The notes below the pieces were generated by a model. It ran no database searches. It was not told where the DNA came from and was given only the letters and a program-made list of their open reading frames with translations. Positions 12,401 through 62,219 of a DNA stretch of 64,000 nt are shown one piece after another. Made by a program: the position numbers and the translations under genes. Numbering within the stretch: position 1 is the stretch's first letter; each line of letters starts with the position of its first letter. Origin of the DNA: Halichondria panicea (taxonomy: Eukaryota; Porifera; Demospongiae; Suberitida; Halichondriidae); the NCBI RefSeq assembly GCF_963675165.1, contig NC_087378.1, positions 2,949,525-3,013,524 of the forward strand, in the 5' to 3' direction.

Positions 12401-12672
12401 CACTGGTTCAGATTGTGACCTTATGGCATGTACGAATCATACGATTAAGAATAACACTGAGTGCCTGGCAACAAGCACTTATTCTGGATCTCAGCTAACA
12501 ACATCAACCAATGCAAGTGAACAGCCCACAATTCAGTCTACGGACCTCTCCAGTGGACTTGGAGCATTAATAGCAGTGCAATTTCTTGTGATAATTGGAA
12601 TGATTACTGGATGGGTTTGTACACGTGTACAAATGAAAAGGAAGAAGGGAAAATACACTATCTCGTAAGTTA

Positions 12673-12717
<45 letters not shown>

Positions 12718-33156: not shown

Positions 33157-33373
33157 AGCCAGCATGAGTACTGCAAGTTAGATAGCTGCAGTTTTAGATA
33201 TTCAGTCACACACTGTTCTATTAAATTTTGCGTGCTCTATAAAAATCTGTTCCAATTATACCCGGACAATTTTCGTTGTCGGATAAATTAGAATTGTATT
33301 GCAAGTAGCAGACATGTACAATAACAAGACATGTACAATAACAATTTTATCTTTTTTCAGGGTGGTTTTAAAA

Positions 33374-36300: not shown

Positions 36301-39300
36301 TCTCCCTGCTCAGGCTATCAGTTTCTCAATTGCTACTGTAGCTCCTCGAATAGGAAATGACTGGAACAAGGATGCCTGCCAGTGTTTCATTAGTATGGTG
36401 CAGGAGAGGGAGTTGAACTGTGAAGTAATTCAATTAGATGCGGATGACTATCCATATGTGCATTTGTTTGACCCATTGCACCCAAACACTGATATTGGGC
36501 AGGAGCTCGTGCGGCGTGGTTTTGCTAAGAAGCACCTTCCCGCTTCCTCGAATGAAGACAGTGATGTGAGATTAGTGCCATCTGGAGCACAAGTTGCTGT
36601 CGCAAGCCCTATAAAGATAACTGAGCAAATACCGAAACAGCCACTGTGTTATAACAACATTGCTCTAAAGACTGGGTGTACTTATGAAGTGCTTGTTTGT
36701 CACGTTGAGTCGTTAACCAACTTTTACTGTCAGTTGACTGAAAGTTCACCAGATTTGGATGAATTAATGGACAATATTCGTTGTCATTGTGGCTCTTTGA
36801 ATTCTTCCTCTCCTGTTGATGTCAGTAACATGGTCAATCAACCAATCATTGCCCTGTTCTCAGAGGATAGCGAGTGGTACCGAGCTCAAATCTGTCGAAT
36901 TGAAAGTGAAGGCTCAGTCTTTGTGAAATTTGTCGATTATGGTAATTGTGAATCTGTCTGTTTGGACACTACCAAAAACATATTGAAGACCTTTGTTCAG
37001 ACTCCAGCTCAAGCTATCTCGTGCTCACTGTATTGTGCTCCTGAGAATACCGATATTTCTGATGACACCACCACCACATTCTCCAGTTTAACTCTTGATC
37101 AGAACTTCACGCTAAGTGTAAAGAAGATTACTGACGATAACCAGATAGTTGCTGACCTCAAATGTGAAGATGGTACTACTATTACCCAGCAACTTGGTTT
37201 AATCCACGCTTCAGCTGCAACTCCAGATTCTTCTGCAATTAGAACTGTTCCTCCACCCATCGTCAGAGTGAATTGTCCTACTACTGTTGTGCCTTGTTTC
37301 ATTGATACACCATTTCGCTTCTACCTTCAACTGGCTGATGATTATGAAACTTTGAAGACTTTTGTTGACTCATTTAACGACTTCTACAAGCTGAATGGTC
37401 AGAATCTCGAGCCATATGTAGGTTGTTTGTGTGCTGCAAAATTTTCTGAAGACCATGTCTGGTACCGTGCAAAGATTACAGGTATATGTGGTAGTCAGGT
37501 AGACGTGGAGTTTGTCGATTATGGTAACTCAGAGACGACTACAATGTCAGCTGTTAGAGCCTTGGACTCCCAATTTTTGTCTGTCCCCTGTTTTGCTGTT
37601 CCCTGCTATCTTAATGGCTTGCCAAAAGACCAGTCAACTGATGCTGACTCCCAAGCATTCAGCAACTTGATTAGTGACAAAGAACTCACAGCAGAATTTC
37701 ATGCTCCATTCTCAGATTTTGACACTTTTGTTGCTGTGCAACTCACAACCAAAGAAGGACAAGATATTCTTGCTACTTTTCTCTCTGCTAAGGATGTGTT
37801 ACTACAAGAGCAAATTATGCTCCGAACATTCGATACGCAACAGATAAAAACACTCTCTCCTGATCTCAACACGCCAACTATGTGCACTGTGTCCTTCATT
37901 TCCAGCTGTAAAGAGTTCTACTGTCAACTGTCCACGTTCAGTACACATTTTAACGAGTTAATGGACAATTTGTATGCTTTCTATGAAGAGGGGAGCAATG
38001 GCAGTTTACTGGCTGCACCTGGTATAGGCTCTTACTGTGCTGCTCCGTTCTCTGACGATGGCTCGTGGTACAGAGGTGTTATTACTGACTTGAACTCACG
38101 GAGTGCTTCTGTTTTTTACATGGACTACGGTAACACAAGTGAAGTTGAATTATCCAAATTAATGCAGTTGGAGCAACAGTTTTGCTCTTTGCCAATCCAA
38201 GCTCTGCTTTGCAGTCTACCTCAACAGTACTCCAATGAAAATTGCTCAAACTCCTTCCAAGACACCCTCGACCAGTCTGTGGAAGTCACGTTTATTGACA
38301 GGCTCCCAGATGGCAGTTTCATGACTGATATGAAAGTGAATGGCATACGAATCAAAGAGATTCTTGCTCCGTATGCTACTCCTAATTTATCGACTACTCT
38401 GGACAATACTGACATTTCTGCTGTGATTCCCGAGTGTGGCCTACCCATGCAAGTGACGGTGTGCTTTGTAGCCAGCTTCGAAGAATTTTATTGTCAAATT
38501 CTATCGGAGAGTGCTTTTGATAGCTTGATGAACGATCTCTATTCATTCTATGCAGAGAGTGGGGAAAGCCGATTGTTGGCTACCCCAGCTGTTGGCCGTC
38601 TGTGTGCTGCTCCGTTCGGTGATGATGGCTCCTGGTACAGAGCAAAAATTACGACAATCTCCGGAGAAAATGCTATTTTGTTCTACATTGATTACGGCAA
38701 CTCTGAGTCACTTCCTCTTTCTCTTATAATGGAACTAGAGCCACAGTTTTGTGGTTTGCCTGCACATTCTATCAAATGCTGCCTGAAGAATTTCACTGCC
38801 ACAGAAAGTCCAGAGTGCTTAACAGTGTTTCAGGAAATTATTCTACAGAAAGAAGTGCTTGCTGTTTTTGAGCCCCATGTTCTAGGTGACTGCTATTCTG
38901 TCACTATGGAAGTAAATGGGCGGAACATATCTGAGATACTTATTGAAGCCGTATCTCCTGCTTCACTGCAACCTGTGGAAAGTGTGACTGCTTCAAAGAA
39001 AATATCACCAACAAACAGTTCCCCAAAAATACCACTGCTGTCCCTTGAACCTGGCTCCACCTGTGATGTGGTTGTAACAGCTTTCAATTCTGCTGAGGAG
39101 TTTTACTGCCAGGTGGTTGACATCGAATCAAAACTTGACTTTTTGATGGTCGAAATCAAATCGTTTTGTGAAAGTAGCCCACAAAGCACTGAGTGGTGCG
39201 AAAAAGAGTGCGTTCTAGCTCGATTCACAGAAGATGAGGAGTGGTACCGTGCTCAGATAGTTAACCTCAACAAAAATGGCACAGTGAAAGTGTACTATGT

Positions 39301-42300
39301 TGACTATGGCAATTCAGACGTTTTGAATATCACTGAGCTCAGAAAGATCACGTCAACAATTTGCCAACTGCCTGCTCAGGTCGTTAAGTGTGCCTTAGAA
39401 GGCTCCCAGTTCTATTCCTACGGTGAGACCAGCCACCAACAGTGGTGTGATTTGCTGCTAGACCAAGAGATGAAACTGAAGTGTGTATCTGTTAAGGATG
39501 ATGAGACTTATACAGTTGATCTCCAGACTTTTGATACTAATGTCGATATCATGTCACATGCCATTAAAACTTTAAAAATTGTCAGTCCACGAAATGTAGA
39601 CCCTGCTGTTGAACTATCAGAGAACAATATAGTTGCCAGCACCGATGTGCGAATCACTTGTGTCTTTCCAGCTGATCTCAAAAATAACTCGTTTCACGAT
39701 GCCCTTGTTCAAAGTGTTGACTCTCCTTCCCTATTTTACAGTCACTTTGATGTTCGCCAGCTGCAGTCCCTAATGAACAGTATGCAAAATTTCTACACGT
39801 CTACGGCCAACCCTCTCAAGCCAGTAGCTCTGTCCAACTACACTGCTGAGTGTTACCTAGCAGCTCAATATTCAGAGGATGATCTCTGGTACCGATGCCT
39901 CGTTGAAGGGGTGAGCTCCACTGGGGTAGAAGTAAAGTTTGTAGACTACGGTAACTCTGAGATGGTCCCATATGAGAAGCTACGATTCCTGGACTCAGAA
40001 TTCACTAAGCTGCCGGCACAAGCTATTCCTTGCTCTCTTGGCTCTATTTCACCATTGGGTTCTGAATGGAGTGATGAAGCCATTGACACATTTTCGGAGC
40101 TTGTGGTGGGGAAGACTTTTAAGAGTCAAGTGATGTTTGATTCTGACCTTACCGAAAAGCCTTTCACATTTGATGGCAGAACCACACTGAATGTTGTCCT
40201 GATTGATGACCAACAGTTGCCAGTTAGTAGGGAGCTAATATCTCTTAGTCTGGCAGGCAGCACTGATGACCATCGACTACAGACTGATAATACTACTATA
40301 TCGGCTTCGGCTGTGTCACCTCAAGAGGATGCACTTACCTATATTGATTTCACGAAACCGTCTGTGGGAGATATCTGTGATATGTATGTGTCTCATATCA
40401 ACTCTCCTGTCCAGTTTTGGCTTCAGATGCCGACAGCTGACGATGTGCTGACTGTCTTGCAGAGTGAACTATCTACAGTATGTGAGGGCAATGAGAATAT
40501 TGTGCTTGTTAATCGGCGAAGTGCTTGTTGTGCCAAGTTCTCGGAGGATGGGTGCTGGTACAGGTCAACTGTTCAAGACGAATCATCAGAAGGACTCACT
40601 GTTCGTTTCGTTGACTATGGCAACTCAGAAACTGTCCCTGCCTCTCAAGTGTTTGAGCTACAGCCTAAGTTTCTTGAAACACCTGTGCAGGCTATTGAAT
40701 GCTCTTTGGCTAGTATAGAAGACAATACCTTTACAGAAGAGAATGTATCAGTGTTTTCTGGTCTTGTGATGGGCAAAGAACTACTTGTCTCTTTCGTTAA
40801 ACAACTAAACCCCCAAAAATGGGAAGTTAACTTACAAGAAGGCGAGAGAGGCATTGATGCACTTTTTCTGGCCACGCTGCAAACTGAGAAGATTCTAGAA
40901 ACTTCCCCTGCTTTAGTCACGATTCCTTCTCTTGACATCGAACTAGGAGAGACGTACCCTGTGTACATAGCATTTAGTGACTCACCATCTAAATTCTTTT
41001 GCCAACTAAAATCTGACTGTGACAAACTGGAGGTCCTAATGGACGAAGTTAGTAAATACTACAGTTCACATTGTGTGGAACCTGACCTGACACCTGGCTT
41101 GTTCTGTGTGGCTCAGTACTCTGGCACAGGGACCTGGTATCGTGCTCAAATCATAGCAGTCCACTCGAAGTCTGATATCGAGGTGAACTTCGTTGATTAC
41201 GGCAACTCTGAACATGTTGCTGCTGAGCAGATTCATTCTTTAGTAGACAAATTCTCCCAGCTGTGTTCTCAAGGAATCCCGTGCTCACTAGTGCATGACT
41301 ACACCATGGAGTTTACGAATGCGGTATTGGAACAGTTCTTTCGATATGATTTGAATCAAGAATTCAAAATCAAGATCAGAGCAGTACATGAAGATCGATA
41401 TGTAGTTGACCTCTTTGACCAAGAAGGTGCCCACATGAATGCCTCAGTACTGGGAATGATTGTGTCACCATCATCTGCATCCCCAGTAGACAAGCACTCT
41501 TACATTCCCACTCAACTCAGTGTGGGTAGCAGCATCCAAGCTTACGTCAGCCACGTCAATTCCCCCACAAACTTTTATTGCCAACCCCTTGAACAGGCTG
41601 CCGAGTTAGAGAATCTAATGAGCCAAATCGTCACTGTGATGTCACCCCCGTTGGCTAGCCACCTACTTGCTATAGAGGATCTCATTCCTGGAAGGATCTG
41701 TCTTGCTCAGTACAGTGAGGACAATGAGTGGTACCGAGCATTGGTGAAAAGTGTGAAAGACATCGAAGTGTCTTTGTTGTATGTGGACTATGGCAACACA
41801 GAGCTTAGCACTTCTGACAAGATTGTCGACTTACCAGAACAGTTTCAGCCAGTTGCCATTCAGGCGATTCACTGCTCTGCTTTCGAAGGTCTGGACACTG
41901 ACATGAGGTGGAAGGAAGAGCAAACCAGCAAGTTTCAGAAGCTAGTCTCTCAGTGTGACCACATCACTGTAACTGTGACTAGTGTATCTCCCACTGGGCA
42001 GTATGTAATGGAAGTTAGCACTAATGGAAATATCATCGACTTCTCATCACTCTTAGAGGAACAAGTGGAAGGATTAGTGCCTCTGGCACCATTACAATCT
42101 CTCTCTTCTGAACCTGCTGATCTGATTGACTTCTCAAAAGTGACCACTGAAGGTTCTGCTGCTAGCAGTACCTCCCTTGACACCGGGTCAGAATGTGGAG
42201 AGACAGAGTCTGATAGTGAGTCAGTCGGAAAACCTCTCATCAAGGCTCCATTCAAACTCAGTTTGGCCATTCAGGAGTCACTCGAAGTGAATGTCGTGTT

Positions 42301-45300
42301 TGTGCAGAGCCCTTCTTTGATGTACATCCAGAGAGCGGACTGTAAAGCTGTGTTAAACAGCCTGAGTGAAGAAATCAAGCAGTACTGTGCAAATTTTGGA
42401 GATTCTCAAAAGGAATTTTCCTTGACGTTTCACAAAGGTGACTATGTACTAGCCAAAAACTCTGCTGATGGTGAATGGTATCGTGCTGAAGTGACAGGTG
42501 TTGATTCTGAAGATGGAACTACTAAAGTTTCACTTATTGATTATGGAAATATCGAGATTATCCCACCAGAAGACGTGGTCATGTGCCCTGAGAACCTACT
42601 TGAACTCCCTGCCCAAGCAATCCCATGTTCTCTTGCTCAAGTCCCAAGACGAGACTCATGGCCTCTCGAGTACAAGGAGCTGATCAACCGGTTGGTTGAA
42701 GGCAGAGTGTTGAGGGCGACTGTGATTCTCCCGGCGAGTCAGGGAATGAGACCCACTGTTAAGCTGGAGGACATACAGACAAACATCGATCTCTCAGATC
42801 AAGTTTTGTTGAACCTACACGAAGAGTGTGAGTTTGGCTCAAATAATGTAATAGCTGAATTGTCCGAAGGTGAGGATTTGGACCCACCACTTGATGCTCA
42901 TCCTGAAGTCACAGAAGACAGCAGTTCAGGCCGTTTATGCTTTGCTGAAGAAGAGCCCAATATACAAGAGGTTAGACTGCTCAGAGAAAGGAAGTTTGAA
43001 ATAGGTTCGGCACACTCTGTGTTTGTACTTACCTGTGAAAGTCCACACTATTTTCTCTGCCAACTGACTGACGAAGCAGGCATATTAGAGTCCATTGTGT
43101 CTCAACTAAAACAGCTCTGTGACAGTCCTCTCGACAACCCTCCTCAACAAGGCAACATACTGGCTTCCCAGTTCAGTGAAGATTACCTGTGGTATCGTGC
43201 ACGAGTAGACAGCTCTGAGTCAGGCCTCACTGAGGTTACCTTCATTGACTATGGTAACTCCGAGGCTGTCACCCTGGATAAGTTGCAATTCCTCCCGAAG
43301 TCCCTTCTTTCTCACCCTCCGTTAGCTTTGGAGTGTTTCCTGGCAGGTATTGAAGCATGTTCTATTGATGGTGTGTTTTGTGAAGATGCAGCTGTTAAAT
43401 TTCTTGAGCATGTGGGAGACAAAGAGGCAAGAATTGAGATTGTTTCAATAGACACAACAGGTCATCTAGGTGTGGTACTAACAACTGCCACTGGAGTGAA
43501 TATTGGAAATGTGCTAATCGAGTCAAAGCTGGCTTCTCCTCTCATTGCCAGTCCAGAAACTGATTTACACTCACTTTCTAACGTAGTCAAAGAGCCTCAA
43601 GAACATTTTTCTCACGAAGATGAGGAACCAATCAATCCGAAAGATATACAGGCTAAGCTAGTAGTCTCACAACAAAACATGGTATCTGTGGAGGAGGTAC
43701 GTGTGGAAGTAACCAAAGAAAATGAAGACAGAGTTCCATTACCTGACCTCCATATAGCATCTTCACAAGATGATGAGATGGCTGATACAGCATTTAGCGT
43801 GCAAGAAACATCTCACTCATCAGACGAAACAACTGTCTCAGTATCAGTCAATTATGTAGCAGCTGAGTTTCACCCAGAAAGCGAATCTATTTCTCAACAG
43901 CTAACATCTATGGACCCACCTCCTGTCAACACCAATGAGAACAACAGTAATGGTTCTGCTTTGTCTTTTATAACCGAATCGAATCCAACTCAATCAACTC
44001 TGACCCAAGCCACTAATAGCTACTCAATCAATGAATGTTATCATGCTTACAATTTGTTACCAGCAAGCGAAGATGAAGAAATTTTCTCACAACCAGAAAA
44101 CGAATATGCAACCATCTTCTCCACACCAACTCTCACACCTGGTAGTCGGCACAAAGTGGAGTTTGTGCACCTGGCAACACCAGAAGACTTTGTGTGTGTC
44201 CTAACAGAGAAGGCCGATATTTTGAAGCAGATGGCTACTGAAATGACTGATAATGATTCCCTACCAGCTGTTAAACAACCTGCACCTGGTTTGCCTGTAG
44301 CTGTCTTTAATGATAAAGACAGAGAGTGGTGTCGTGCTGTTGTACGCTCTGTTGGGATGTCACTCAGTATGGTCAAGCTGTACTTACTGGACAAAGGGAC
44401 AAGTGACATGACACCACTTTCTAAGCTCAGACCTCTCTCAAAAAGTCATGCTGAACTACTACCACCTCAAGCTTTGAGATGTCAACTTAGTGTTCTGCAT
44501 GAGAATGACTTCGACCCTAATGTTGTCACAAAAGGGGAACCATGGGAGCTCAATTGGCCAAACAGCTGTAGTCACCACCTGCGTAAACTCACCGAAAACA
44601 GTAATGAAATCTACTTAGAGATCCTTTCAGCCGGAAATGACTATACATGTACCTATGAAGTCACACTGCTGGATTGCTCTACTGACCCTGCTCTCAACCT
44701 CAGACAGGTTGTGATCGATAAACTCCGTACACTCACTGAAACCACCGTTCTCTCCCCTATATGTCCAATTGCTCACGAGGAATCGTTTGAAGCTGCCCGA
44801 ATGCAAGTTGACTTTGAGGAGCTCTCAAACCCTGATGACCAAGTCACAGTCGGTGTTGATAGCATGGCTGTTACACCACCTTTCTCACCTGAACCAGTTT
44901 CAAGCACATCTGTAGAGGCTGTTGTTACACCACCTCTCTCACCTGAACCAGTTTCAAATACATCTGTAGAGGCTGTTACACCACCTCTCTCACCTGAACC
45001 AGTTTCAAATACATCTGTAGAGGCTGTTACACCACCTCTCTCACCGGAACCAGTTTCAAATACATTTGTGGAGGGCATAGAGAACAGCATGGCTGTTACA
45101 CCACCTTTCTCACCTGAACCAGTTTCAAGCACATCTGTAGAGGCTGTTACACCACCTCTCTCACCTGAACCAGTTTCAAATACATCTGTAGTGGCTGTTA
45201 CACCACCTTTCTCACCTGAACCAGTTTCAAGCACATCTGTAGAGGCTGTTACACCACCTCTCTCACCTGAACCAGTTTCAAACACATCTGCAGAGGTCGT

Positions 45301-45854
45301 GGAGAACAGCGTGGCTGTTACACCACCTCTCTCACCTGAACCAGTTTCAAACCCACTGGCAGAGGGCATAGAGAACTGTATGGCTGTTACACCACTTCTC
45401 TCATCCGGAATAATTTCTGGAGAGGGCATGAAGAACGGAAAAGTTGAAGTAGTTCGTCATCATTCGCAAATGTCAGAAGGCGAGACACAATCCGATGTGC
45501 TGCCCAGTGAAATCCAGGCAGCCATTCCAGGGGTATATGTCCCATCCAATTATGATGACCGTGACTTCATTGATGGTGAAACATCCGTGTCCACTGGTGA
45601 GGGTGATAGAAGCGCTGGTAAGATCTCTGACTCTGGGGAGGAGGTTGCTGTAAGTGGTGTGGAGGGAGAGACAAGTGCTGGAGAAATGGACATGTCCAGG
45701 GAAAACAATTTGCATCCCTCAGAAGACCAGGCCTATAAAAGTGAGTGTGCATTGCATTCTATCATTGTTTTGTAAATGCCAATATATTTTCGGCTCTAGA
45801 ATTACATTCAATTTTTCAGTGGCTGTTCTAGAATGTCTCCAGGGTTTATTTTAG
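33374..45854 (+). CDS. Giant multi-Tudor protein, 17 Tudor repeats, about 4133 aa
   Basis: The main exon is read from an acceptor at about 33361 with start codon MSVKIVFEKKQKAY at 33374, and ends at a gtgagt donor after 45740. A 35-base last exon (45820-45854) closes in phase to give a tail MAVLECLQGLF; without splicing the frame would stop at 45775. Seventeen extended Tudor domains about 200 residues apart carry the signature W-Y-R...D-Y-G-N, at approximate residues 73, 269, 483, 710, 933, 1167, 1362, 1564, 1753, 1956, 2171, 2395, 2587, 2784, 3034, 3273 and 3651. The last is degenerate (EWCRAVV...DKGTSD). Tudor repeats of this class bind dimethylarginine on Piwi proteins and build germ granules (fly Tudor, TDRD6, TDRD15). 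The C-terminus from residue 3820 is disordered and Pro/Ser-rich. An upstream non-coding exon is likely but not located. Confidence 0.93.
34650..36330 (+). repeat. Three near-identical Tudor coding units in tandem
   Basis: Blocks of about 300-450 bases starting near 34650, 35340 and 36005 are almost identical at the DNA level, including silent positions; for example ctggaagagatggaagcatt recurs in each. They encode Tudor units 3-5, with repeat periods of about 680 and 670 bases. The other Tudor units in the gene are far more diverged. Confidence 0.95.
44865..45395 (+). repeat. Coding minisatellite: TPP-SPEPVS repeats in the Tudor protein tail
   Basis: Nine copies, plus one degenerate copy, of a unit like VTPPLSPEPVSNTSVEA are encoded by 51-base and longer DNA units. 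Each has a TPP and an SPEP site suited to proline-directed kinases. The long antisense open frame over this tract is a by-product of the repeat. Confidence 0.95.
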
Positions 45855-48390: not shown

Positions 48391-51300
48391 TTACAAGTTT
48401 TGGAGTCTGATTAGCAAATCCTCCTTAAGTTGAAATTTGTGTTTGATAGTCAAAAGACCTTCCAACGTTTCTTCCAAAAATTTAACCACATTGTCCAGAT
48501 CTTCTTCCCAGCTAGTAGGATCTACACCGACCACCTCTTCATACAGTACACAGTAGGCCCTCTTAAATGCAGTTATCAGAAACTGATGATCTTGCTTATC
48601 CATACTGGTCATAGTACTATAAAAGATGTCCTCTTGAAATAGTTTGAATACTCTTGGCTTCAGCTGAGAATGAGCCAGTCCAGTATTTACAATTTTCTTT
48701 ATGCTTTCGATTGCTTTTGTGATATCTTCTTCAGACAGTTCTTCTGGTGGCTCCAACTGTCGAATAGCACTCTCAGCTCCTCCGTGATCGATCTGATGTA
48801 TTCGTTTGTAAATTTTGCAAACCACATCTGCCAGTAGGTCAGATGGATTAGCACCGGGATTGTGTTCAACCTCTGTCGGAAGGGCCCCTATTGCTAGATT
48901 TCCAGCTGTATGCATATCGCCTTTTCTTTTGAGATGTCTTTTTACCAGGCAGGCAATGACAATCAGTAATATGAACAAGAGAAGAAAAACAAAGCATCCA
49001 ATCACCGACACTATTATGATGATTTCATACAACTGTTCAGTGCTTAGGGGGCGACTTCTTGTATCTGTAGTGAAAAATTGTATTCATGCTTCTCAAACAA
49101 AAACAATCGTGGATAGCGAGCTCAGAAAGGATAATTATTTTTTTCTTCCACGATTCTTTTGACAGCTAGTGCGTGGTTAGTATAAGTGCGCTCTACACGA
49201 TACACATAGCTCAGAGGAGGTACGACAGGCACGGTGCAGCTTAAGTAATTAGCCTCTCAGCAATAACATTGTAACGTTAGTGTTTAATCAGAGACTAATT
49301 GCTAGAGCTCATTTTCTGTTATTAGATATGCATTTGTCATGCTGCACTGCACCTGTCGTACCTCCTCTGCATAGCTACATGTACAAACACAAATTGGTAG
49401 GGACTTACCCAGAACACGTGACTTGTCACTTTTTGGTCCCATTTCCAGATTTTGAGTAATGAGGGCAACTTGCAGTGTAAATTCTGTATCCAAAATTGCC
49501 TGAGGGGGGGCTCTCTCCAGATAAATTATATTTTCAGTGTTAATAAAACCGTCTTTTGTAATTATTGGGATAGTACTTGTCGGATTGTTGAGAGGCGTGT
49601 ACTCAATGTAGAGGTTAACATCAATCGGAATTACGTCATGCAGTTTAATGTCGAAAAAGATGTTTCCCTCTTGAGTAACACTTACTGTCATACCTGAAAA
49701 TCCACCTGCATGTGTTTTTGGGATCATGATAATCAGTGGAACCCTCCCCCTCATAATCCCTCGACGTATGAAATAGTTTACAATACACCCTCATGGAATT
49801 TTTGCATTACATGTTATACTAGAGCACTAAAGTGCAAACCCTCGGCTGGTGACATGATTATAAAGAAACCAGAAATATAATGCAGTGCCATATAGTGATG
49901 TTGTTATCACGTATGACTTGCACAGCAACTAAGGAGCAATAAAACTAAACCAGACTGGAGGCATGCTGAAACATTTGAGAACAGGTAGTGGTACTATATG
50001 CACTGTGGATTAGGATCACAGCAAAGAAGCCTGGAGTCTCAGAGAAGTATGGCTCCAGGTCCTGTGGAGTAGGATCCCAGTCAGCTAAAAGCAGGAGCTA
50101 TAATTCAAGCTTTCTACTTTAGTGACCCTGTTCCATTGTTCCTGGTATATACAGCTTTCTACTTTAGTGACCCTGTTCCATCGTTCTTGGTACAGGATCA
50201 CTTCAGTTATAAGTAACGCATGTGCAAGTTCTGTTCAAGCTACATTTTGCTCGCTTTTATTAGACAACGAAGCTTTAACACCGAAAGCTGCCACTATCCA
50301 AAGTACTAACTTGTTGTGTGGAGGCTACTCATGCTGTAAACGCAGTGCTAGAACATCCAGGTAAGCAGACCTAGTCACAAGCTTCTTAGCTTTTGCTCGA
50401 CAAAAAAGCTTTAACATCAAAATCTGCCACTATTTAAATCAAGATATTGTTGTGTGAAGGCTATCCATGCTGTAAACGCAGTGCTGTGGCATCCAGGTGA
50501 GTAGAAAAGCCGATCACAAACAAACAAACAAACAAACAAACCAACCGACTACTATACCCGTGGCCGCCCACGCGCCTCGGGTAATAACTTAGAACCTAAC
50601 TATATACATGTAGGTTGTAGCAAAGGCTTATAAAGAGAAGTGGGCATGCAACTCGTGATCGGGCTATTCTCAGAATCAGCACTTTTTATCTGTTACTATA
50701 TAAGACATTCCACGTGGGAGGAATGCTCTACTGGTTTCTATCGTGTAGCTAGAAATTTCTGCGGCCCAAAAATTCTGCGAATAATTGTAAAAAAACCTTC
50801 TGCGAATTAAACTTTCAACTGTTAAATTAATTTGTTAATTTATTTGCGGATAATAATTATAGCAGAATTCGCAGAATTTTTGGGCCGCAGACATTTCTAG
50901 CTATATGGTATTTATAGTACATGTAGATCCTGTCTCTGATATGAAGTGCATGCCTTTCTCTTTATAAGCCCTTCGTTGTAGCAGAGATACAAAAGAAAGG
51001 GGATTGGAAACAACCGCCCACGCCCTATGTAAAAGGACTGACATCCGGTGAAGCACTCCGTGTAATTATTGCGCTCGCAAATAATTACATGGAAAAGTTT
51101 TATATCCCTGGTTTCTAGCTCTCCTATCCACTAGAGATCACTCAGGGCCTGGGAGATACTTGAGAGAAGTAAGCTTATACCACTGACAAGCTCTAAGTCC
51201 GTTGTCTTTACTCTGTTTCCAATTTTTTTGAGTTTAGCTTGAATTACTCTATGTCAACTTTTCTCTGTCCCTCTTGTGAAGTCAAAACAGCAAAGGACAT

Positions 51301-53125
51301 TGCTTGACTTGGTTATTATGTATCTAAGTGCTACATAGAATGGCTTCATGCTATAAATAAGCTGTACTGTTCATAAACGTTTGCAGTATAGTCCTTCAAA
51401 CTGCTTTAGTATACTTTTAGACACGCCACGGGCCTGTCCCTCCTACGACTTCATAGTAAAGGCTATTTCTTCTTGCATAGCATTTATTTGTCTAGTAATA
51501 GTGGCTGCATGGCTTAGTCGACTTTTTAGAGCTAAATTCTCTTTACTTTTTAGAAAAATCAACATTAAAAATGATCAATTTCACTGTTTCTATGTACAGC
51601 ACATTGTAGAGCAGTCAAGACTGGTAATGAGCATGCTGACTATAAATATAATCCTTTGTAGTTTTAGCCACGCCCTATAACACGGAATGCTTCACGCAAA
51701 AATTTCGTAAAAATTTCGTTTCCAATCCCCTTTCTTTTGTATCTCTGGTTGTAGTAATGTTACACCATAATTTACACATGTTATGTCATTGACCAACATA
51801 TATACATGTAGTGGGTTCTGTTTAGCTAGTGACATCACGCACTACATGTTTAGAGAATCCCATTAAGGTGCAGGGCTCTCTGCTTACCTAAAATAGCCAG
51901 TGTGGTATTGGCAAACATGGTGGCTGGGACTGACCCACTGGCTTCACTAGGAGGGATTCGAGCCTCACACCTCACAATTCCATTGTCAATCACTCCAGTA
52001 GATCTGATGGTCATTTCAGTTGTGATGCTAGTTACACCATTACTGGTGCTACGGCCTGTAACCTCGGTGCTATATTTGCCTGAACCAATGGTTTGAACAT
52101 CCCTCACATCACCATGCCACCAGAAAATTTCAAGGCTAGAGGCAAACTGTTCAGACGCAGTCGCTGTGCATGTGAATATGACGCTATCTTCATTTGTGGC
52201 AAGTACGTCGTTGTTCTGTAGCGTAACCACTTGAGGTGTAGGGGGCTGTGGAATTCTCGGGAGATCTAAGTGGATCATTAAAAAAACATTGTAATAATAA
52301 CATAACATGCATGTTAACACATTGACAGTGACATCATAATGATACAGTGTGTGCAGAAACACGTACATACCAAACACCACCAAGGAGAGGTTAACGGATC
52401 TTGTCTGTTCATATACCATTTCACCATCAGCTCTATTTCCACCCTCCACCCCCAAGACACATACATAATCACCAGCATCAGCAGGAGAAACGTCAGAGAT
52501 TATGAGTGATAAATCTCCTCTGTCAATACTATAGTGACCACTGTTGCTGTTATCATTTCCAGAAGTATGACCACCCCGGAGGCTGATCGTCATTCCTGTA
52601 TTGACATAAGACCACTCAACTGTGTAAAAACCAATCAGTTTGCCAGGCTGAATGGCACAACTTAGGCGAGCTTTAGTTCCAGATGCAACAGGGAAAAGAG
52701 TTGGCACACCCATCAAATCTTGATACACTGGGAACGCTGCAAGGCGAAAAGAACTTAATTATGGAGCCGTAAAAAGGTAAATGCAACAAACCAGGGAAAT
52801 ATTTTGGATCGCTTTCTCGTTGGTTATTTGGATTACTTTGTGTTCCACATGTGTACATACCTTCGAGGTCACGAGTAATACTAAATGCTATGTTGCTGCT
52901 ACCCGGTTGACGATTAATTTCCACTCTCGGCATAACATCAAACAGCGAGGTTCCGTTAAGCCAGAAGAAAGCATTTGGTTCACTAGTTCCTGTTTGTTCG
53001 TTGCGGCACTCAAGTGTAAGCACATTAATGTTTATTGTGCCAACTATTAGCAGGTCGAATTTCTGAGACAACGTTATACTTGGCAGGAGCAAGCACAAAA
53101 TGGTAACTGTCCTTGCAAAGTTCAT
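48391..53125 (-). CDS. Ig-superfamily receptor A: 3 Ig + FN3-like + TM + helical tail, 682 aa
   Basis: Five exons close in phase: 53125-52792, 52736-52371, 52265-51888, 49705-49409, 49064-48391. Every internal boundary is phase 1, the pattern of shuffled extracellular modules. Exon 1 gives a signal peptide (MNFARTVTILCLLLPSITLS) and Ig1 (LECRNE...EGMYTCGT). Exon 2 is a V-type Ig (LSCAIQ, VEWSYV, ADAGDYVCVLG). Exon 3 is Ig3 (FTCTAT, IFWWHG, GIVRCEAR). Exon 4 is a cysteine-free beta domain, FN3-like. Exon 5 has a transmembrane helix (FVFLLLFILLIVIACLV), a basic stop KRHLKRK, and a cytoplasmic part of about 180 residues that looks all-helical. It contains LAHSQLKPRVFKLFQEDIFY and WEEDLDNVVKFLEETLEGLL. 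I do not recognise that domain. A cell-surface recognition or adhesion receptor is inferred. No paralogue-level name can be given. Confidence 0.88.
49212..49370. mobile_element. hAT-like palindromic MITE in the receptor A intron
   Basis: Inverted ends cagaggaggtacgacaggca and tgcacctgtcgtacctcctc, about 158 bases, flanked by the direct repeat catagct on both sides. Same family as the element at 16811. Confidence 0.8.
49824..50588 (+). repeat. R2 dispersed repeat, long copy
   Basis: Runs from agcactaaagtgcaaaccct to gcccacgcgcctcgggtaat. It contains two successive partial bodies, a local duplication of agctttctactttagtgacc (about 50111 and 50151), and an (ACAA)n run near 50518-50540. Lies in the third intron of receptor A. 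Confidence 0.7.
50747..50907. mobile_element. MITE with long terminal inverted repeats
   Basis: About 36 bases at each end pair: tagctagaaatttctgcggc on the left against gccgcagacatttctagcta on the right, with an ttctgcgaa-type continuation inward. Lies in the third intron of receptor A. Confidence 0.8.
50987..51746. mobile_element. 760-base DNA element with 28-base terminal inverted repeats
   Basis: The left end gagatacaaaagaaaggg continuing gattggaaac is inverted relative to the right end tttccaatcccctttctttt ending gtatctc. Subterminal ccacgccctat occurs near both ends. Interior open frames lack transposase features. It is probably non-autonomous. In the third intron of receptor A. Confidence 0.85.
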
Positions 53126-54777
53126 TTTCTTAACAATTACACAAGATAAGATAATCACACGCTATAGATACATTAATGGGATCCTAATATAGCAGCTAAA
53201 TTCAATCAGCTAGGCACAAAATAATCTTACTTACTTTAGTGGTATCTATAGCTTGAGCTTTCCTGTTTCAACGCAGGAAGTAGATGAATTCAATCTACCC
53301 AGTTTTAGGGGTTGACCCATCTATAATATTTTCCCTGATTTTTGTCAGTGTAACAGTAGATAACCAATTATTATGCCTCGAGGCGTAGCCGCACGAGGGA
53401 TACGGTAAAGCTGACTGTGTGTGTGTCTGTCTGTGTGTGTGTGTGTGTATTCCAGCTATAACTGCTCAACGGTTACAATGCGACGAAAACTAACAGCTTC
53501 TATAGGCTTCTAGCCACGTTCTCTTGGATTTTGATTCGTGGATTAGCAAACTAAAGCTTCTTTCTCGAGTTATGGCTAGTTTGACTCACATTGAAGGCTG
53601 TTGCAGTCTCTTCAGAATCTTTCATAGCATCATCTGTCCGCACAAACTTTCTATTCAACATATGAGTTAGCCTTGCACTAAAGCGCTAGCTTTTTGTTAG
53701 CTACAATACTCAGAAAATATCTGTTAAAACAGCTAGCTAGCAGTACAGTAGCCATTTGTAAAATTGATCTCTTTGGACACACCCTTTAATTATTCCTGTG
53801 GATGTAATGCGCATGCGCGCTCATTCCCCATGTGTGAGAAAATAATATCCAAGATCCAGATCCAGATCCTCCTGGCAGAATCATCTTTGTCTTGAGGGCC
53901 TGGTAAGCCACAAAACACTACCATATAACAATATAGATAACAATATGCATGTACACAGGTCTTTTCTTCTTAGATATTATATACACTGAACTACAGATCC
54001 TGGAAGAATCAATTTTCTTCTTTCTTGATGTCCTGGTAAGCCACATAATACAAAAAATAATAACTTACAATAGATGCATGTAAATAAGTCTTTTCTTCTC
54101 AGTGACTTTATATAGATAAGCTAACTTTAATATAAAATTCATTATAGATAACACTCTAATACTTTTGAGCGAAAGCAAAAACATGGCGAGAGGCATTAGC
54201 ACAGCGCCAGCTTGAACACTAGTTACAGCATGATTGGCAGGTATAATCATCTCCTTGTCATGCCATGATGGCATAGTTCAAGAGTCATGTGGTACTTGTT
54301 GCATTTTGAGTGGGCAGATCAAAGGAAACACTGTGCCAATATCTGCCATATGGCACAGGTCAAGCCTTGAACTGTGCCAATATCTAGATACTGGCATAGT
54401 AAGTTACCCACCCTCCACCGAGTAACCTGAAACGGTCCCTTCTAGTTGTCCTATAAAAGGAGTGATGTGTACACGGAAAGGAATGCACAAGGAATGCAAC
54501 AAATCATGTATCATTACTAGGATTGTGCAGTATCCACCTTCTGATCCTTCAATGACAACGTTCATGATATAAGAAATAATTATTATACAACCGTAGTTAT
54601 ATATATATAGTGGACAAGACAAGACAAGAGAATATGTGGGGTGGGTGTTGTGCAATACAAACATAATAATTATAATATTATACTATAATTAAACAATTAT
54701 ACTCCTATAACACAAGCGATGTATCAATTAAGTTGGCTGCATCACAGCAGAGTGCTAACTTCTCCTACTTGTTCAGT
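53126..54777. other. Intergenic gap between the two Ig-receptor genes
   Basis: Holds the receptor A promoter side and the receptor B 3' side, plus a diverged R1 copy (53372-53830). Near 54230-54400 there are repeats of tgtgccaatatct and gccatatggcac-type inverted motifs. No gene seen. Confidence 0.5.
53372..53830 (+). repeat. R1 dispersed repeat, diverged copy
   Basis: Starts ttatgcctcgaggcgtagcc with a gatacggtaaag continuation and shares the taggcttctag, tcttggatttt and cactaaagcgctagct blocks with R1. The right end differs from the other copies. Confidence 0.6.
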
Positions 54778-57700
54778 TCACTTTGTTTGGAAAGGAGGTT
54801 GAAAATGTGGGCTATTATCCAGCTCCAAATCTTCAAACGACGAGCCACTATGTCTCAGATTCTTTTTTTCATACTTGATGGTGAATTGGATAGGGTTGGT
54901 GGCGTGAGGCAAGCTAGTGTGGAACACCTCCTCCCTGCTGGTAGGTGGTTGAAATTGAATCTCCTCGTATGGGTTTTTGATAGGGTCTGCAGGGAAGACA
55001 TAACAATTTAACTAATAATGAAACCACTGAAGTTTCATAATATACCGTGGCCATCTGTACTGTGATCTGTAGAGTTTGTAGCTAGGCAGCAGCAATACCC
55101 GATCGGATTCCTTGTCAAAAAGCGCTTCTTTCTATAATTATATGCTGTAAAACATATAAACTCCTACCAGCTAAAAGTTAGCATTTTCCATGCAGAGTTA
55201 AACTCCTACCAGCTAAAAGTTAGCATTTTCCATGCAGAGTCCCTGTCAAGGCTGTCATACTTGTCAACCACATAAAGCATAAATGAAGCCATAATTGACT
55301 ACATTACTTCCGGGGCCGAACTCAAAGCAAATGGCTGCTTTGCAGACACTTTTGCAGCTGGCGTTTTAGTGCAGAGCTAACTACGAAGTAGAGCAAAAAC
55401 ATGTGCTCGAAGACAATTTTTTTTTGCTACGAACAACTTATGAAGAGGCTGCAATGGCATTCCAAGTAAGCAAAACTAGGTATAACTTGAGAACAAAGTA
55501 TTATTTTGCAAATCCACATACTGTATTTACTTGATTAAACACCTGGGCGTTTATTTCAGATTTTTTTTTTTTTTTACGAGGAGGGCGTTTAATCCAGGAG
55601 GGCGTTTATTGTTATGTCTCCTCCAAAACTCTTGCACAGCAGCAGTTATTGTGCTCTTCTTGGGCTGCTGTCTCAGCTTAAATTAAGTCAAAGGAGTGCC
55701 CTCTGTATCGGTATCTCTCTCTCTGCCATCAATGCATCGTAAAAAAGTATTTTTATTCTATGCTGCCACACCTGCAACTGGTTCCACGTGCTATTTCAGC
55801 TCCACCCACAGTGCCACGCCCCATCATGGGCGATTATTCAAAATGGGCGTTTATTGACAAAGACAGAGCTTTTACCCTGGGCGTTTAAACGAGATGGGCG
55901 TTTATTCAAGGAGGGCGTTTAATCAAGTAAATACGGTACTGAAATCCAAGAAAACCTGACTAAAAGCCTTTTACTTATTGGTCAATGAGCAGCTGTAGCA
56001 GTCACTTCTACTTTAATGATACCTCGCTGCGCATGCGCACATAATTATAATAAGCTCAAAATTCTGAGGCCACAAAAATGCATTTAAAAAAACAAACGTA
56101 CACTTCACCCTACCACTACCACTTACCATGGATAGTAAAGGAAAACATATCATGCGCACCAAAGTTTCAATAGAGTCTGGATGGTACAATCCTACGTACG
56201 ATTTTTAATTCATTAGAGGCTGTTTTTTAAGCTTTATTTTTGTACCTCAAGATCATTTTTTCAGCGTTCAAGCCAATGAAGTGAGCTATTTCGGTACATA
56301 AAAACATAAGCTTCCATGGTAGTGGTTGCCATAAAGTTTGGATGGTGTATTGTACCCAAAAATGTGTTTCTACCTTGGGTTGAGTTGTTTTCAGAAGCTC
56401 TATTGCTCCATAAGGATGGATTAGTGAGCGGTACATAAAAACATAAGCTTTCCAATGATAGTGGTGCCATAAAGTTTGGATGGTGTATTGTACCCAAAAA
56501 TGTGTTTCCACCTTGGGTTGAGTTGTTTTCAGAAGCTCTATTGCTCAATAAAAGGTCTAAGCATAAGGATGGATTAGTGAGTTACACTCTGTTTTAAGTG
56601 AAGTTCTTGTCTACTATATATACAGAGAAGGTTGGACACGTGTCATAATGTTTACGGAGGAAATGTGTGTGTATGGAGAGATGTACGGAAACTTACACAG
56701 AACAGTAGCTATCCTAGCTAAGCTAAACGACTGCAAACGATTTTAGCAATTCATACTAGTAGTAAATGATGCTAAAAATACCCAGTGATTCTAAAAAGTG
56801 ATTAGCATAGTCACACTCGAAGCAATGAACCATAATAGTTCAAGTTGTTGCTACACTTCCCTTTATCTTGATGTAGCAGATATACATTGTAGTAATCATA
56901 GTATTAAACTACTACGACTCATAAACGAACAGGAGATACATGTACTATACAAGAGATAAAAAAGTAAGAATGGAAGAGTTAGATAAAATGCTGACTCAGC
57001 TGGATCGAAAAGGCTCGGTTTTAACATGTCATTAATGATTTTGTAGTGATCGGAACATCCAATCCTGATTTCCAATAACTTTTATATCATGCATTTTAAA
57101 GCGATAGTCTTTTTAGAATATGAAGCAAAAAGCTCGTAAGAAAAGGTGCAAGTCATCCTTAACCAGATCCCACTCTCTCTCAATAAAACAAAAGCATCTA
57201 GGAAGACATGAATTCAAAAATGTCATCCATAAGACACGTACACGTAGTAACCACACCATATTATAATTATACGCGTTTATTTTTATGTTGGCATGTGTAC
57301 ACTGTAGTTTTTGTTACTCTCTGCGAATCCACTTTAAACTTTGCAGTACAGTTATGATTAGTGTCAAGACTCATACATGTACGTACAAAGAGAGTTCAAT
57401 AAGATTAATAACACATTTTATCGTGTTTATATGTAGCCTAGATAAATAATTGATCTAGCTTTTTCATGATATCCCTTTAACTACACTGTCCACAGTGTCT
57501 AATATGAGCTTAGAGTTCGAGCTTGACGTACTCATATCTATGTAGCCTCGATTTCACACCACAATGAAGGGCCTGGAATCGAGGCTAAGATAAGCAAGTG
57601 GGATTGAGACGTATGACGTAACGCGTTTTCAATCCCTTTCCTATTACTATCTATGCACTTACTGAGCACATCAAGTTCTCACCTGGAGTCACAGGGGAAG

Positions 57701-60700
57701 AGTGAGGTTCCTGTTGATGGTCGTCACCCCATTGAGCCAGCTCCTTGTGTTTGAGAGAGTCAGTCTCAGCGTAGACCTCTCTTACACTTTCCAAATCTTC
57801 TTGACTCCACGTCCCACGACTGTTCCCACTACGACTGCTCCTACGACTGCTACCACTGCGACTGTTAAATGAACAAACACACCTATGAAGTTTACTCACA
57901 AAATACCACAGATTACACCAAACCATGCATTTGGGACAGCAGCAATGACAAGTTAGGCATGTGACGATTATGCGAGCATAATTTTGAGAATTTAATAGGC
58001 AGCTTCTAGAAGTTGTGCGGGAATAAACGGACAAGTGGGTGGGAATAATTTTCCCATGTGGATAGAATTCTAAATAACGTACATTTACCGTTTGTGTGTT
58101 AGCTAGCTAGGTTTCTATTTCAGCATGGAATCTGGAGAGATTAGCAGTAGGGTTAGTGCCCCTCCTAGCACAACAGGCACCATTGTAACTGATTCTAATA
58201 CAGCTAAAGCCAGTTCCCAAGAGTCATAATAATTAGTCCTGTGCGTGCGCAGCAGGGGTAGGAGTGATTGCATTGTGAATGATAATGTTGTTAAAATGAA
58301 AGCACCGCGGGTGCTGATGCCTCGGTGGAGGTGCCAAAACTACACAACATAAAGCATACACACATACTGAATCAATATCATGATGAACATCTTGCATGCA
58401 GAATCCAGAATCACAGGAAAAGAGTGGGTAATGATCGACCATGATCGTTGTTAAAAACGATCGATGCTAAAAGTAAAAGTCTAAAATTATAATGGCTGCA
58501 TGCATTAGCAGAGCCTTGCAGCTCTCTTCTCACTCTTGCAGCTACTAATAGCTAGCGTTCTAGTGCAGAGCTAACTACGTAGCAACACTTGGTGAACAAA
58601 TTTTGCTACGCACTATTCTAAAAAGGCTGTAATGGCATTCCAAGTAAGCATAACTCGAGAACGAAGCATTATTTTGCAAATCCACAAATTAAAATCCAAG
58701 AAAACATGACTAGAAGCCTATAGAAACTCTTACTTGCACTTTATTGATCCTTGAGCAGCTGTAGCAGTCTACACACAGGCACACACACAAATACACTACC
58801 GTATACCTCGCTTGTGCATGCGCACTGAGGCATAACTACTAACTTGTTGCGTGAAGGCTATCTTGCTGTAAACGCAGCGCTATGGAATCCAGGTGAGTAG
58901 ACTCATGTGTTACAAACAAATAAACAAACCAACGGATTACTATACCCGTGGCCGCTCCACGCGCACCTCGGGTAATAACATGCAGATGGGAATGAGAATT
59001 ACTACACCAGCATGATTCATCTTCAAATATTTTCTTCAATAATAACTTATTATATTATATTATAGCTAAGCAAAATAATGTCCCTGTAGGATGATTGTAA
59101 GCATGCATGACTACCAATAAGGGACGCTCATGTACCTGTACATTTACCTTGAGTGGATGGACTTGTCGCTCCGCTCACTGTTGTGACTCCTGCTACTCCG
59201 CCCACTACTGCTGCTGGTGTCACTGTTGTAGCTGGATCTACTTATACTCCTGGTCAACGTATCTCCCTTAACGCTCCCACTTTCATGGAAGTAAGGGCTA
59301 GCAGTCAATGAACGAAGCGGCTGTTTCTTGCGCATGTAGTGGACGCACAGTCCCAGTAGAACACTCCCTACTATGAACAGGCCTATAACCGCCACCAAAA
59401 AAATGCCCAAAAGGACCTGAGTGATCGTGCTCTCAGGAGAGTTTTTCGAATCTTCAGGAAACTGTGGACACTCACAGTCACTGCCTGTAATGCTAGAAGG
59501 AAGCTCATTGGGTAGTGCTGTGTGTGTATGTATATGTGTAAAGATGAAAAGGGAATTTGAGTGGGCTGATATACCAGAAGAGGATAGCCAGGGTCAAAAG
59601 TTCTTAAGTAAAATATGCTTCCGAAGGACTTTAATTGCATTTCGATCATCTACTCTTTCTTTGCTTCAGTCACAATGCAAGATTGGAGGTATTAAATAGA
59701 TCAGAATGCATGCAATTAAAGTCCTCCGGAAAATTTTTTATTGACCCTGACTATTCTCTTCTGGGCTGGTACTGTGCATGTAAATGTAGTGCCAAACTAC
59801 TGGGTAAAGGTCGTCATAATAGTAAGCAACAAGCAAGGTACACGTTACATGTAGATAGAGAATAACACCAAAAGGGAATTGAACTTACTTATTTTCTCAG
59901 TCTCAGGAGTCAGTTTCCCCACAATATCATCAAACTTGAGAGCAATACTGACCCCAAATTGCCTAAACTGCGGTAGCTGGTCTTCTGGTATTGAAATATC
60001 AATAAAATTTGTGTTTTTGAATGAAGGATGGATTATTTCCCTCTGTTGAACGACGGCAGTGTTGAATATGAACTTGACTATTAGTGAGAACACTCCAGGG
60101 ATGACAGCGGGCAGGGGGGCTCGAATGCGGACATTGCCGTTGGTCTCAGATGTTAGTGTCACAGGGAAGTTATTAGCTGTACATGTGTGTTGAGTGAATA
60201 TTGCCACCACTAACAACCTTAATCATATGGACATAGCCACCTTAATCATATGGACATAGCCACAACCAATTACTATAATAATGTTCAAGAATTATGTCTA
60301 TGTCTACATCTGTATGCTAATTGTATAATTATGCCCTAAATAACACCAGAATGCTTTAACAACTCAGGGTGTCATACAGGGGGGAAGGGGATACTCCCCT
60401 CCGGCTCTAATCCCCCCCTCACCGCATTCAGGTACTATAGTTATTTGACTGAGTGTCCATAGCTGGTAATGTTACATACCAGCAGGGTATTGAAGTAACA
60501 GTTTACCTTTTTTTAGCAAAATGTTTTGGTTACTTTTCAAAAGCATGCCTTATTTCCCCCCTCTATTTCAAAATCCTGTATGACACCCTGCAACTGATAC
60601 ATAATTATATATAAGGCAGCTGCCTTCTAGACCCATTAACACATTGAATGTAAGCAGTCTGTTGGTAGGGTGGGGCATGGGTCCAGAAAGCAACGTACAG

Positions 60701-62219
60701 GACATTGTACATGTACATGTACGTATCAGATGCAGTGCATTACATTGAGTGAAACCGAGTGCTCCCACCCTATGTCAGGCACTAGGTAAGTCAACATTGA
60801 AACATGCAATATAGAAATATGAAACAACAATGAGTTTCTAGAAACAACTTCGTAACACCTACTCACTTAGTATGACAAGGTTGGATGTACTAGTGGCCAA
60901 AAACAGATCTCCACTGAAAGAATGATAAGCCACACAAGACACAGGTCCTGTCTCAGTCTCTGTTACTGCTGTCCGTCTGAGAATGCTCTGCACTGTGATG
61001 GAGTTGAGGGTGGAGGAGATGATGACGTTACCATCCTCTGTCACCTCTTTGCTCCCAATCAGCCACTTGATGCGGGGTTGAGGTACACCTACTGCTGTGC
61101 ATGTAAACACTGCATCTTGCCCCGGTAGAATAGCTACGTCAGTAATGTACTCGGTGATTCTGATTGGGTCTGTGCGAGAGAATGGTGTTAATAATTACTA
61201 TTGTGGAATGGAATAAATTGTTTCTTACGATTCTGATGCATGCAGCTAATCTACAGCACATACCAGTAACTTCTAATGACACTGATAGTCCATATTTCTT
61301 CACGACATCCCCGCTGATGTTCACGGCTATGTTGCAAGCATATGCTTTAGCATCATCAGGTACTGTGTTGTTGATGACCAGTGAAAAGTTATTCAAAATA
61401 CTGTAACGACTAAACGCTGGGGCCAAAGTGTTGACCTGACTAAGACCTCTGAACCAGCTGACTGAATAGTTGTCTAGCAGCACACCAGGCTTGTAAGGAC
61501 AGTGAATGATGGCATGATCACCAGTTGGAGTGGAATAAATTGTTCGAGCACGAATTTCAGGATTGATGGTCGGATATGCTGTGGATAAAATATCAATGAA
61601 TGCATGGATTTGAAACCAGCACGTCAGATAATATTCTATTGTGTATAATTATTACAACTGCTACACAACATGTGTGTCAGCATAGATAATGGAGCACAGA
61701 AATTCTAGAATAGTCTCTATTATCTATGGTGTCAGCTAGTGCGCTATACAATGGGCAATTGTTACATGCAGTTGACCTCTGCACATGCAGTGGTGCATGA
61801 CAACCACTATCATCTGATAGCCCCCCACTTCTACACCGTTGAACGTAGGTCAACTATTAGTTGACACATGTATAAATAATTATATGTAACTCACCAACTA
61901 GTTCCACTTCATTATCGGATCGTATATTGTCCACTTCACAATAATAGTAGCCCTCAATGTCAGGCGTCAAATCAAAGTTCAGCAGGACACGGCTAGAAGA
62001 TTTAGTTGTGTTAGCTATCACACGCTCTCTGTTAGCCCCAACTCTACGATAGTACAGGGTGACACCGTTAGGCTCATTAATGGGACACGAGAGGACAACT
62101 TTGGTAATATGAGCATCAGAGATTGTCCTCATTGATGTTATGGACGTGGCTGTAGCATGAGAGGATAATGAAAGTAGAAAGATGGATGAGATGAGGAGTA
62201 TTGATCTTGAGCCCACCAT
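54778..62219 (-). CDS. Ig-superfamily receptor B: 3 Ig + FN3-like + TM + Ser/Arg tail, 662 aa
   Basis: Seven exons close in phase: 62219-61895, 61578-61264, 61169-60867, 60176-59889, 59517-59148, 57861-57683, 54986-54778. Exon 1 has a signal peptide (MVGSRSILLISSIFLLSLSS) and Ig1 (LSCPIN, EGYYYCEVD). Exon 2 is a V-type Ig (IIHCPYK, VSWFRG, DAKAYACNI). Exon 3 is an I-type Ig (FTCTAVGVPQPRIKWLIG, VSCVAY). Exon 4 is a cysteine-free FN3-like domain. Exon 5 adds a short stalk with CEC, a transmembrane helix (LLGIFLVAVIGLFIVGSVLL), HYMRKK, then a Ser-rich stretch. Exons 6-7 give Ser/Arg repeats, EVYAET, and a last exon with NPYEEIQF, a tyrosine motif suited to SH2 or PTB binding. Boundaries of exons 1-4 are all phase 1, as in receptor A. 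The last exon lies 2.7 kb from exon 6 and is placed by phase and motif. Confidence 0.85.
55171..55250. repeat. 41-base tandem duplication
   Basis: Two direct copies of a unit that begins aactcctaccagctaaaagt, in the last intron of receptor B. Confidence 0.9.
55340..56038 (-). repeat. R1 repeat in reverse, split by an M3 MITE
   Basis: R1 sequence in reverse orientation (gctaactacgaagtag, tggcattccaagtaagc, then aaatccaagaaaacctgact and tacctcgctgcgcatgcgca) is interrupted exactly between 'aaatccacata' and 'ctgaaatccaag' by the M3 element at 55519-55939. Confidence 0.8.
55519..55939. mobile_element. MITE, family M3, long copy
   Basis: The ends ctgtatttacttgattaaac and gtttaatcaagtaaatacgg are inverted repeats flanked by TA. 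The interior has several gggcgtttat/gggcgtttaat motifs and a poly-T run. Confidence 0.85.
56280..56585. repeat. Tandem repeat, period about 140 bases
   Basis: Two and a fraction copies of a unit containing cggtacataaaaacataagc, aagtttggatggtgtattgt and gggttgagttgttttcagaa. In the last intron of receptor B. Open frames across it are repeat artefacts. Confidence 0.9.
57543..57588. other. Short hairpin in the receptor B intron
   Basis: tagcctcgatttca is followed after about 18 bases by tggaatcgaggcta, giving a stem of 14 pairs with one mismatch. It may be a transcribed hairpin or the remnant of a small MITE. No RNA gene call is made. Confidence 0.5.
58299..58833 (-). repeat. R1 dispersed repeat, reversed copy
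   Basis: Runs from gcgggtgctgatgcctcggt to tacctcgcttgtgcatgcgc, the reverse of copy 2. It is followed directly by a partial R2 copy. Confidence 0.8.
58830..58980 (+). repeat. R2 dispersed repeat, partial copy
   Basis: Contains cttgctgtaaacgcagcgct, atccaggtgagtagactc and ccgctccacgcgcacctcgg, matching the right half of R2. In an intron of receptor B. Confidence 0.65.
60364..60590. mobile_element. Small inverted-repeat element, family M7
   Basis: Ends cagggtgtcatacagg and cctgtatgacaccctg are perfect 16-base inverted repeats, with related caact flanks. It lies in the receptor B intron between the third Ig exon and the FN3-like exon. Confidence 0.85.

Follow-up and report, generated by a model that had tools for sequence, protein, structure and literature searches.

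The 64,000-nucleotide stretch of the Halichondria panicea genome analysed here (the window; contig C2:2949525-3013524) contains two adjacent genes, A and B, which encode receptor-like proteins with matching extracellular parts and different cytoplasmic tails. The question raised by this locus is what kind of receptor family the two genes represent. An earlier note on this DNA had likened the pair to the Hydractinia allorecognition complex. Domain comparisons and searches of the 131 Mb assembly (39 contigs) indicate that A, B and a third gene, C, probably belong to a family of single-pass immunoglobulin (Ig)/FN3 cell-surface recognition receptors, a reading held with moderate confidence. The family is duplicating, and the eight genes that were read completely (A, B and C on contig C2; X1, X2, X3, X4 and X6 on contig C12) keep one ectodomain plan with a different tail on each copy. 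It is best called a paired-receptor-like family with tail exchange, and it is larger than first described.

Gene A (window positions 62219-54778, minus strand) and gene B (53125-48391, minus strand) share a common plan of a signal peptide, three Ig domains (D1-D3), a cysteine-free D4 and a transmembrane helix, in which the signal peptides and the transmembrane helices were assigned by eye. All eight ectodomain exon joins of the two genes are in phase 1. Exon 1 of gene A (61895..62219) begins with an ATG, encodes the signal peptide and D1 with its cysteine pair, and ends at a GT donor in phase 1. According to the gene model and the Pfam search, exon 2 (61264..61578) encodes a D2 of the V-set type, and exon 3 (60867..61169), supported by Pfam and PDB searches, encodes a D3 of the I-set type. 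D4 occupies exon 4 (59889..60176). Exon 5 (59148..59484) provides the transmembrane helix and the beginning of a Ser/Arg-rich tail, which continues in exon 6 (57683..57861) and ends in exon 7 (54778..54986) with NPYEEI followed by the stop codon. In gene B, the signal peptide and D1 (52792..53125), the V-set D2 (52371..52736, 1.2e-9), D3 (51888..52265, from the gene model and the domain comparison) and D4 (49409..49693) are followed by a single exon for the transmembrane helix and a helical tail (48391..49064, stop at 48391). The parts of each gene would be spliced together into a protein presumably displayed at the cell surface.

The Pfam models ig, Ig_3, V-set and I-set score above cut-off in A and B, placing both proteins in the immunoglobulin superfamily. 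D4 has the FN3 fold according to the family model, and its profile found just two matches among PDB sequences, both at chance level. The D2-D3 stretch of A resembles ROBO, DCC and NCAM. Searches of Pfam and PDB revealed no known adhesion molecule as a one-to-one orthologue. The shared anatomy and the tandem paralogy of A and B, both described in the earlier note, are borne out by the gene models and by the domain comparison (D2 of A against D2 of B, blastp 7e-9). The same holds for its statement that the cytoplasmic parts differ completely, as the two tails show no relation by sequence comparison. For the helical tail of B, neither a Pfam match above cut-off nor a relative in the PDB turned up. 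Its AlphaFold2 (AF2) model, calculated without relatives, has a predicted local distance difference test score (pLDDT) of 41.5, too low for a fold search from the model.

Gene C was located just past the right edge of the window, in the same orientation as A and B (69310-64179, minus strand, in window coordinates). Thus, the guess of the earlier note that the cluster continues past this edge was correct, and a further paralogue adjoins the pair. The exons of gene C (69310-69013, 68853-68539, 68478-68083 and 66199-64179, minus strand) are joined in phase 1 and encode three domains matching D1-D3, a Thr-rich stalk, a transmembrane helix and a Ser-rich tail of 638 residues; D4 was not found in gene C. 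In comparison with A, the z-scores of D1, D2 and D3 are 5.0, 7.9 and 9.8, respectively. The three genes lie within 21 kb on C2. Over 150 kb from the window start, a motif scan of long open frames, which misses several domains of the three genes themselves, picked up no other Ig gene, and scans with A and B domain profiles gave nothing convincing beyond A, B and C over the scanned C2 stretch to the right of the window start.

The genome search with the gene B protein matched relatives of D1 and D2 on contig C12, where reading of the matched regions gave five paralogues: X1 (C12:4692075-4696361), X2 (C12:4706264-4710429), X3 (C12:4714841-4710753, minus strand), X6 (C12:4717640-4715161, minus strand) and X4 (C12:4997552-5001485). 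Four of them (X1, X2, X3 and X6) lie within about 26 kb. D1, D2, D3, D4, the transmembrane helix and a tail are present in all five genes. The search also found a lone related exon at C12:4397236, and the gene B query gave two more weak matches over D4 and the transmembrane helix (E 0.5 and 0.7). Counts of family members are lower bounds, the genome search scoring the best candidates only.

Position-matched comparisons of the domains of the eight genes, with the X1-X2 pair left out, showed a median z of 9.0 for same-position pairs (n=101, 74% above 4) and of 0.1 for different-position pairs (n=303, 2% above 4). Values above 4 were reached by 19 of 27 same-position pairs for D1, 20/27 for D2, 25/27 for D3 and 11/20 for D4. 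Generic I-set domains from six of the eight I-set loci found in this genome served as a control. Against these, z exceeded 4 in 12% of 48 comparisons for D1, 35% of 48 for D2 and 0% of 42 for D4. D3 is the least specific domain, with 81% of 48 such comparisons also above 4. The cysteine pair is present in D1 and D3 of all eight genes and in D2 of five. The D2 domains of X3, X4 and X6 lack both canonical cysteines (X4 retains one stray cysteine) and are V-set-like, with the Trp, Asp and Tyr core positions kept. Seven of these eight genes contain the FN3 D4. In an unrooted tree built from D1-D4, A and C are set apart from B and the C12 genes with a bootstrap of 92; X1 groups with X2 (100) and X3 with X4 (93), and X6 stands next to them (76).

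The tails behave differently from the ectodomains. Among the 28 tail pairs, the median z is 0.2; the similarity between X3 and X6 (z 5.9) is the one weak exception to unrelated tails, and the next value is 2.4. Each of the eight tails, including those of A and B, matches itself alone in the genome at E<=1. Pfam detects no tyrosine kinase domain in A, B or C. No kinase or TIR domain was found in the tails of A, B, C or the C12 genes scanned (all but X4), which have no Pfam match above cut-off.

A clear case of one ectodomain on two tails is the pair X1 and X2, located 14 kb apart. Their D1-D4 are 89-90% identical, and the z of their tails is 2.1. The aligned exon stretches are 83-94% identical at the DNA level, including 86% over the start of the transmembrane exon. 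The identity stops at C12:4696117/4709801, a few codons past the transmembrane helix and within the exon shared by helix and tail, and the X1 tail DNA has no match in the X2 stretch examined. From D1 to the transmembrane helix (478 codons), the nonsynonymous (dN) and synonymous (dS) divergences are 0.062 and 0.176. The dN/dS ratio of 0.35 indicates purifying selection on the pair, and no diversifying selection was seen. With a dS of 0.176, a common tail is very unlikely to have become unrecognisable through point mutation, and therefore one of the two tails was probably replaced. These observations bear on an alternative in which the genes serve ordinary development, as adhesion receptors or as receptors for growth factors; they would then be old paralogues that lack recognition diversity and have tails separated by drift. 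Low identity among most members, purifying selection in the sole recent pair, the FN3 domain and the similarity of D2-D3 of A to ROBO, DCC and NCAM all agree with such an origin. However, drift poorly explains X1 and X2, with their dS of 0.18, unrelated tails and sharp DNA breakpoint.

A second comparison is provided by contig C6, which carries at least four close relatives of the C ectodomain (58-76% identity). In a tandem array at C6:2313371-2343155, three Ig genes (C6a, C6b and C6c) are followed by tyrosine-kinase exons and one by Sushi exons. Downstream of each of C6a, C6b and C6c are a transmembrane exon and tyrosine-kinase exons with HRDLAARN, and a hand-joined reading of C6b, the only one tested, matches PF07714 at 1e-67 in Pfam. 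From order and strand, we infer that each ectodomain forms one gene with its kinase or Sushi exons. Long CA/TG simple repeats were seen beside a kinase exon in this array. C and C6a-c look like a second case of tail replacement, with related ectodomains followed by kinase exons in the latter and by a non-kinase Ser-rich tail in C. The common kind of tail in the C6 kinase relatives again suits developmental receptors. However, drift also poorly explains the difference between C and these relatives, and we consider the developmental alternative rather unlikely.

The favoured reading of a recognition receptor family with exchanged tails suggests how the receptors may work. The family would expand by gene duplication with the ectodomain plan kept as an Ig D1, a V-set-type D2, an I-set-type D3 and an FN3 D4. 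The membrane-distal Ig domains, namely the V-set D2 and the flanking D1, may engage a partner, either on a different cell or on a microbe, with D4 as a possible spacer between the receptor and the membrane. Depending on the tail, contacts of one kind would lead to different outputs, such as a kinase in the three C6 relatives and possible Src/SH2 docking through YEEI in A.

Several points weigh against this reading. The gene models were derived from DNA sequence alone and alternative tail exons are possible, and the tails of the five C12 genes were read only to the end of the sequence stretches examined. Pfam picks up only D3 in C, and the link between C and B is weak (z of -0.1 to 2.9 for D1-D3), C being tied to the family mainly via A. 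In-frame stops in three of the 11 C6 matches may mark intron-spanning matches or damaged copies. C6a, C6b and C6c have similar transmembrane and kinase parts, so that tails are not always exchanged. As for signalling motifs, no immunoreceptor tyrosine-based activation motif (ITAM) occurs in the eight tails, and sites resembling the inhibition motif (ITIM) are at chance level (three seen vs. 1.9 in shuffled tails, P 0.31). Yxx[ILV] is slightly frequent in the tails (12 vs. 7.5 expected, P 0.06). YEEI is an optimal docking motif for Src-family SH2 domains. The pattern Y[DE][DE][IVL] (YEEI/YEEV) is enriched in the tails (two vs. 0.14 expected, P 0.008), an enrichment of two sites in one of three motif tests with a pattern picked after YEEI had been noticed, and the site in B lies within a predicted helix.

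Another explanation is that the genes encode microbe-sensing receptors of innate immunity whose diversity arose by birth and death, as in the vertebrate paired receptors of the FcR/KIR type. Near-identical ectodomains with different tails, as in X1 and X2, form a pattern termed paired receptors in Xenopus, whose FcR-like receptors have similar ectodomains and distinct transmembrane regions (PMC2413239). In sponges, too, Ig ectodomains occur with a variety of signalling tails, Ig-TIR and Ig-CARD genes being reported there (PMC6208332). However, a microbial ligand is conjectural; ITAMs are absent and ITIM-like sites at chance in the eight tails, as noted above, and no charged residue was seen by eye in the eight transmembrane helices. 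An innate immune role is thus possible but doubtful.

Structurally, the likeness to vertebrate paired Ig receptors (FcR/KIR/XFL) is clear in X1 and X2, which have near-identical ectodomains and unrelated tails. Unlike in the Xenopus receptors, the transmembrane helices of X1 and X2 are alike and the tails differ. Also unlike in vertebrates, the motifs and transmembrane residues give no sign of opposed ITIM and ITAM-adaptor signalling, and the eight tails, each different from the rest, do not form two classes. On the evidence here, paired receptors are still a closer formal analogy than Hydractinia Alr in their common ectodomain and exchanged tail. Halichondria receptors include tyrosine kinase, Ig and FN3 domains (PMC8242945). 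The family resembles sponge Ig-type receptor tyrosine kinases and Ig-TIR proteins in placing Ig ectodomains on varied tails, as the C-like ectodomains of C6a-c followed by kinase exons illustrate, whereas the scanned tails of A, B, C and the C12 genes differ from them in having neither kinase nor TIR.

In comparison with Hydractinia, part of the analogy drawn by the earlier note stands. Alr comprises at least 41 loci, over half of them in three clusters, with low identity and a common architecture (PMC11067881, PMC11876637). Tandem clusters of divergent single-pass Ig genes with a shared architecture and low identity are also found here, three in 21 kb on C2 and four in about 26 kb on C12. The loss of both canonical D2 cysteines in X3, X4 and X6 is a further likeness, some Alr Ig domains also being without them. 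Such features would agree with a role of A, B, C and the clustered C12 genes in self-recognition, as polymorphic receptors that determine whether individuals fuse or reject each other in the manner of Alr1 and Alr2. However, allorecognition was not established. The members are dispersed over three contigs (C2, C12 and C6) rather than forming one complex, the C-type relatives have tyrosine-kinase exons, and purifying selection acts on X1 and X2 in what is a comparison of paralogues and not an allele test. The membrane-proximal domain is FN3, so that three Ig domains plus FN3 stand against the different Alr plan, Alr being compared by description only. An Alr-like role is accordingly improbable. 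Also improbable, and put forward as speculation, is a plug-in system of self/non-self recognition in an early-branching animal, in which a duplicated Ig-V-I-FN3 module, breakpoints after the transmembrane helix and single-copy tails, including kinase exchange, would turn one class of contact into many signals.

Some further features were observed in and around these genes. A repeat element at window positions 50945-51118 and 51357-51680 (plus strand) lies antisense inside an intron of B, and a near-identical element (in translated frames) occupies the intron between D4 and the transmembrane helix of X4 (C12:5000202-5000916); this shared element is probably a transposable element. Dense arrays of I-set matches with nearly equal scores at C1:6379666-6443713 and C5:1986829-2079870 suggest large repeated Ig genes. 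To the left of the cluster, a single open frame of 4162 amino acids (window 33287-45775, plus strand), which we take to encode a multi-Tudor protein, ends with several tandem Pro/Ser-rich units (VTPPLSPEPVSNTSVEA-like) at ~44.9-45.4 kb. Frames to the right are presumably ARFGEF, KCTD and CAD genes. At window 12273-13438 (plus strand) is a non-Ig membrane-receptor-like gene with a transmembrane helix and a tail rich in tyrosine motifs (NPAY, YDI, YAVI and YHI); its two frames gave no Pfam match above cut-off. Sponges have slowly evolving mitochondrial DNA. A COX1 fragment inside a large contig (C1:5280527-5280718), the single one that a COX1 search of the genome gave, requires TGA to encode Trp for an open reading. 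It is closest to plant COX1, then to bacterial and yeast COX1, and matches plant and bacterial COX1 better than vertebrate COX1, which suggests a fit with such slow evolution and is weak evidence against an ascidian.

No title or abstract describing this receptor family was found in searches covering open-licence papers. X1 and X2, together with C and its kinase relatives, point to replacement of receptor tails with the ectodomain kept, which is useful for studying the origin of signalling receptors. It is not settled which molecules control graft fusion in sponges, and aggregation factors are the usual candidates. In a graft transcriptome study, aggregation-factor-mediated adhesion was not significantly enriched, and the word 'immunoglobulin' does not occur in the part of the article available (PMC5450542). 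The clusters described here are concrete candidates for sponge graft recognition, testable by population sequencing together with grafting.

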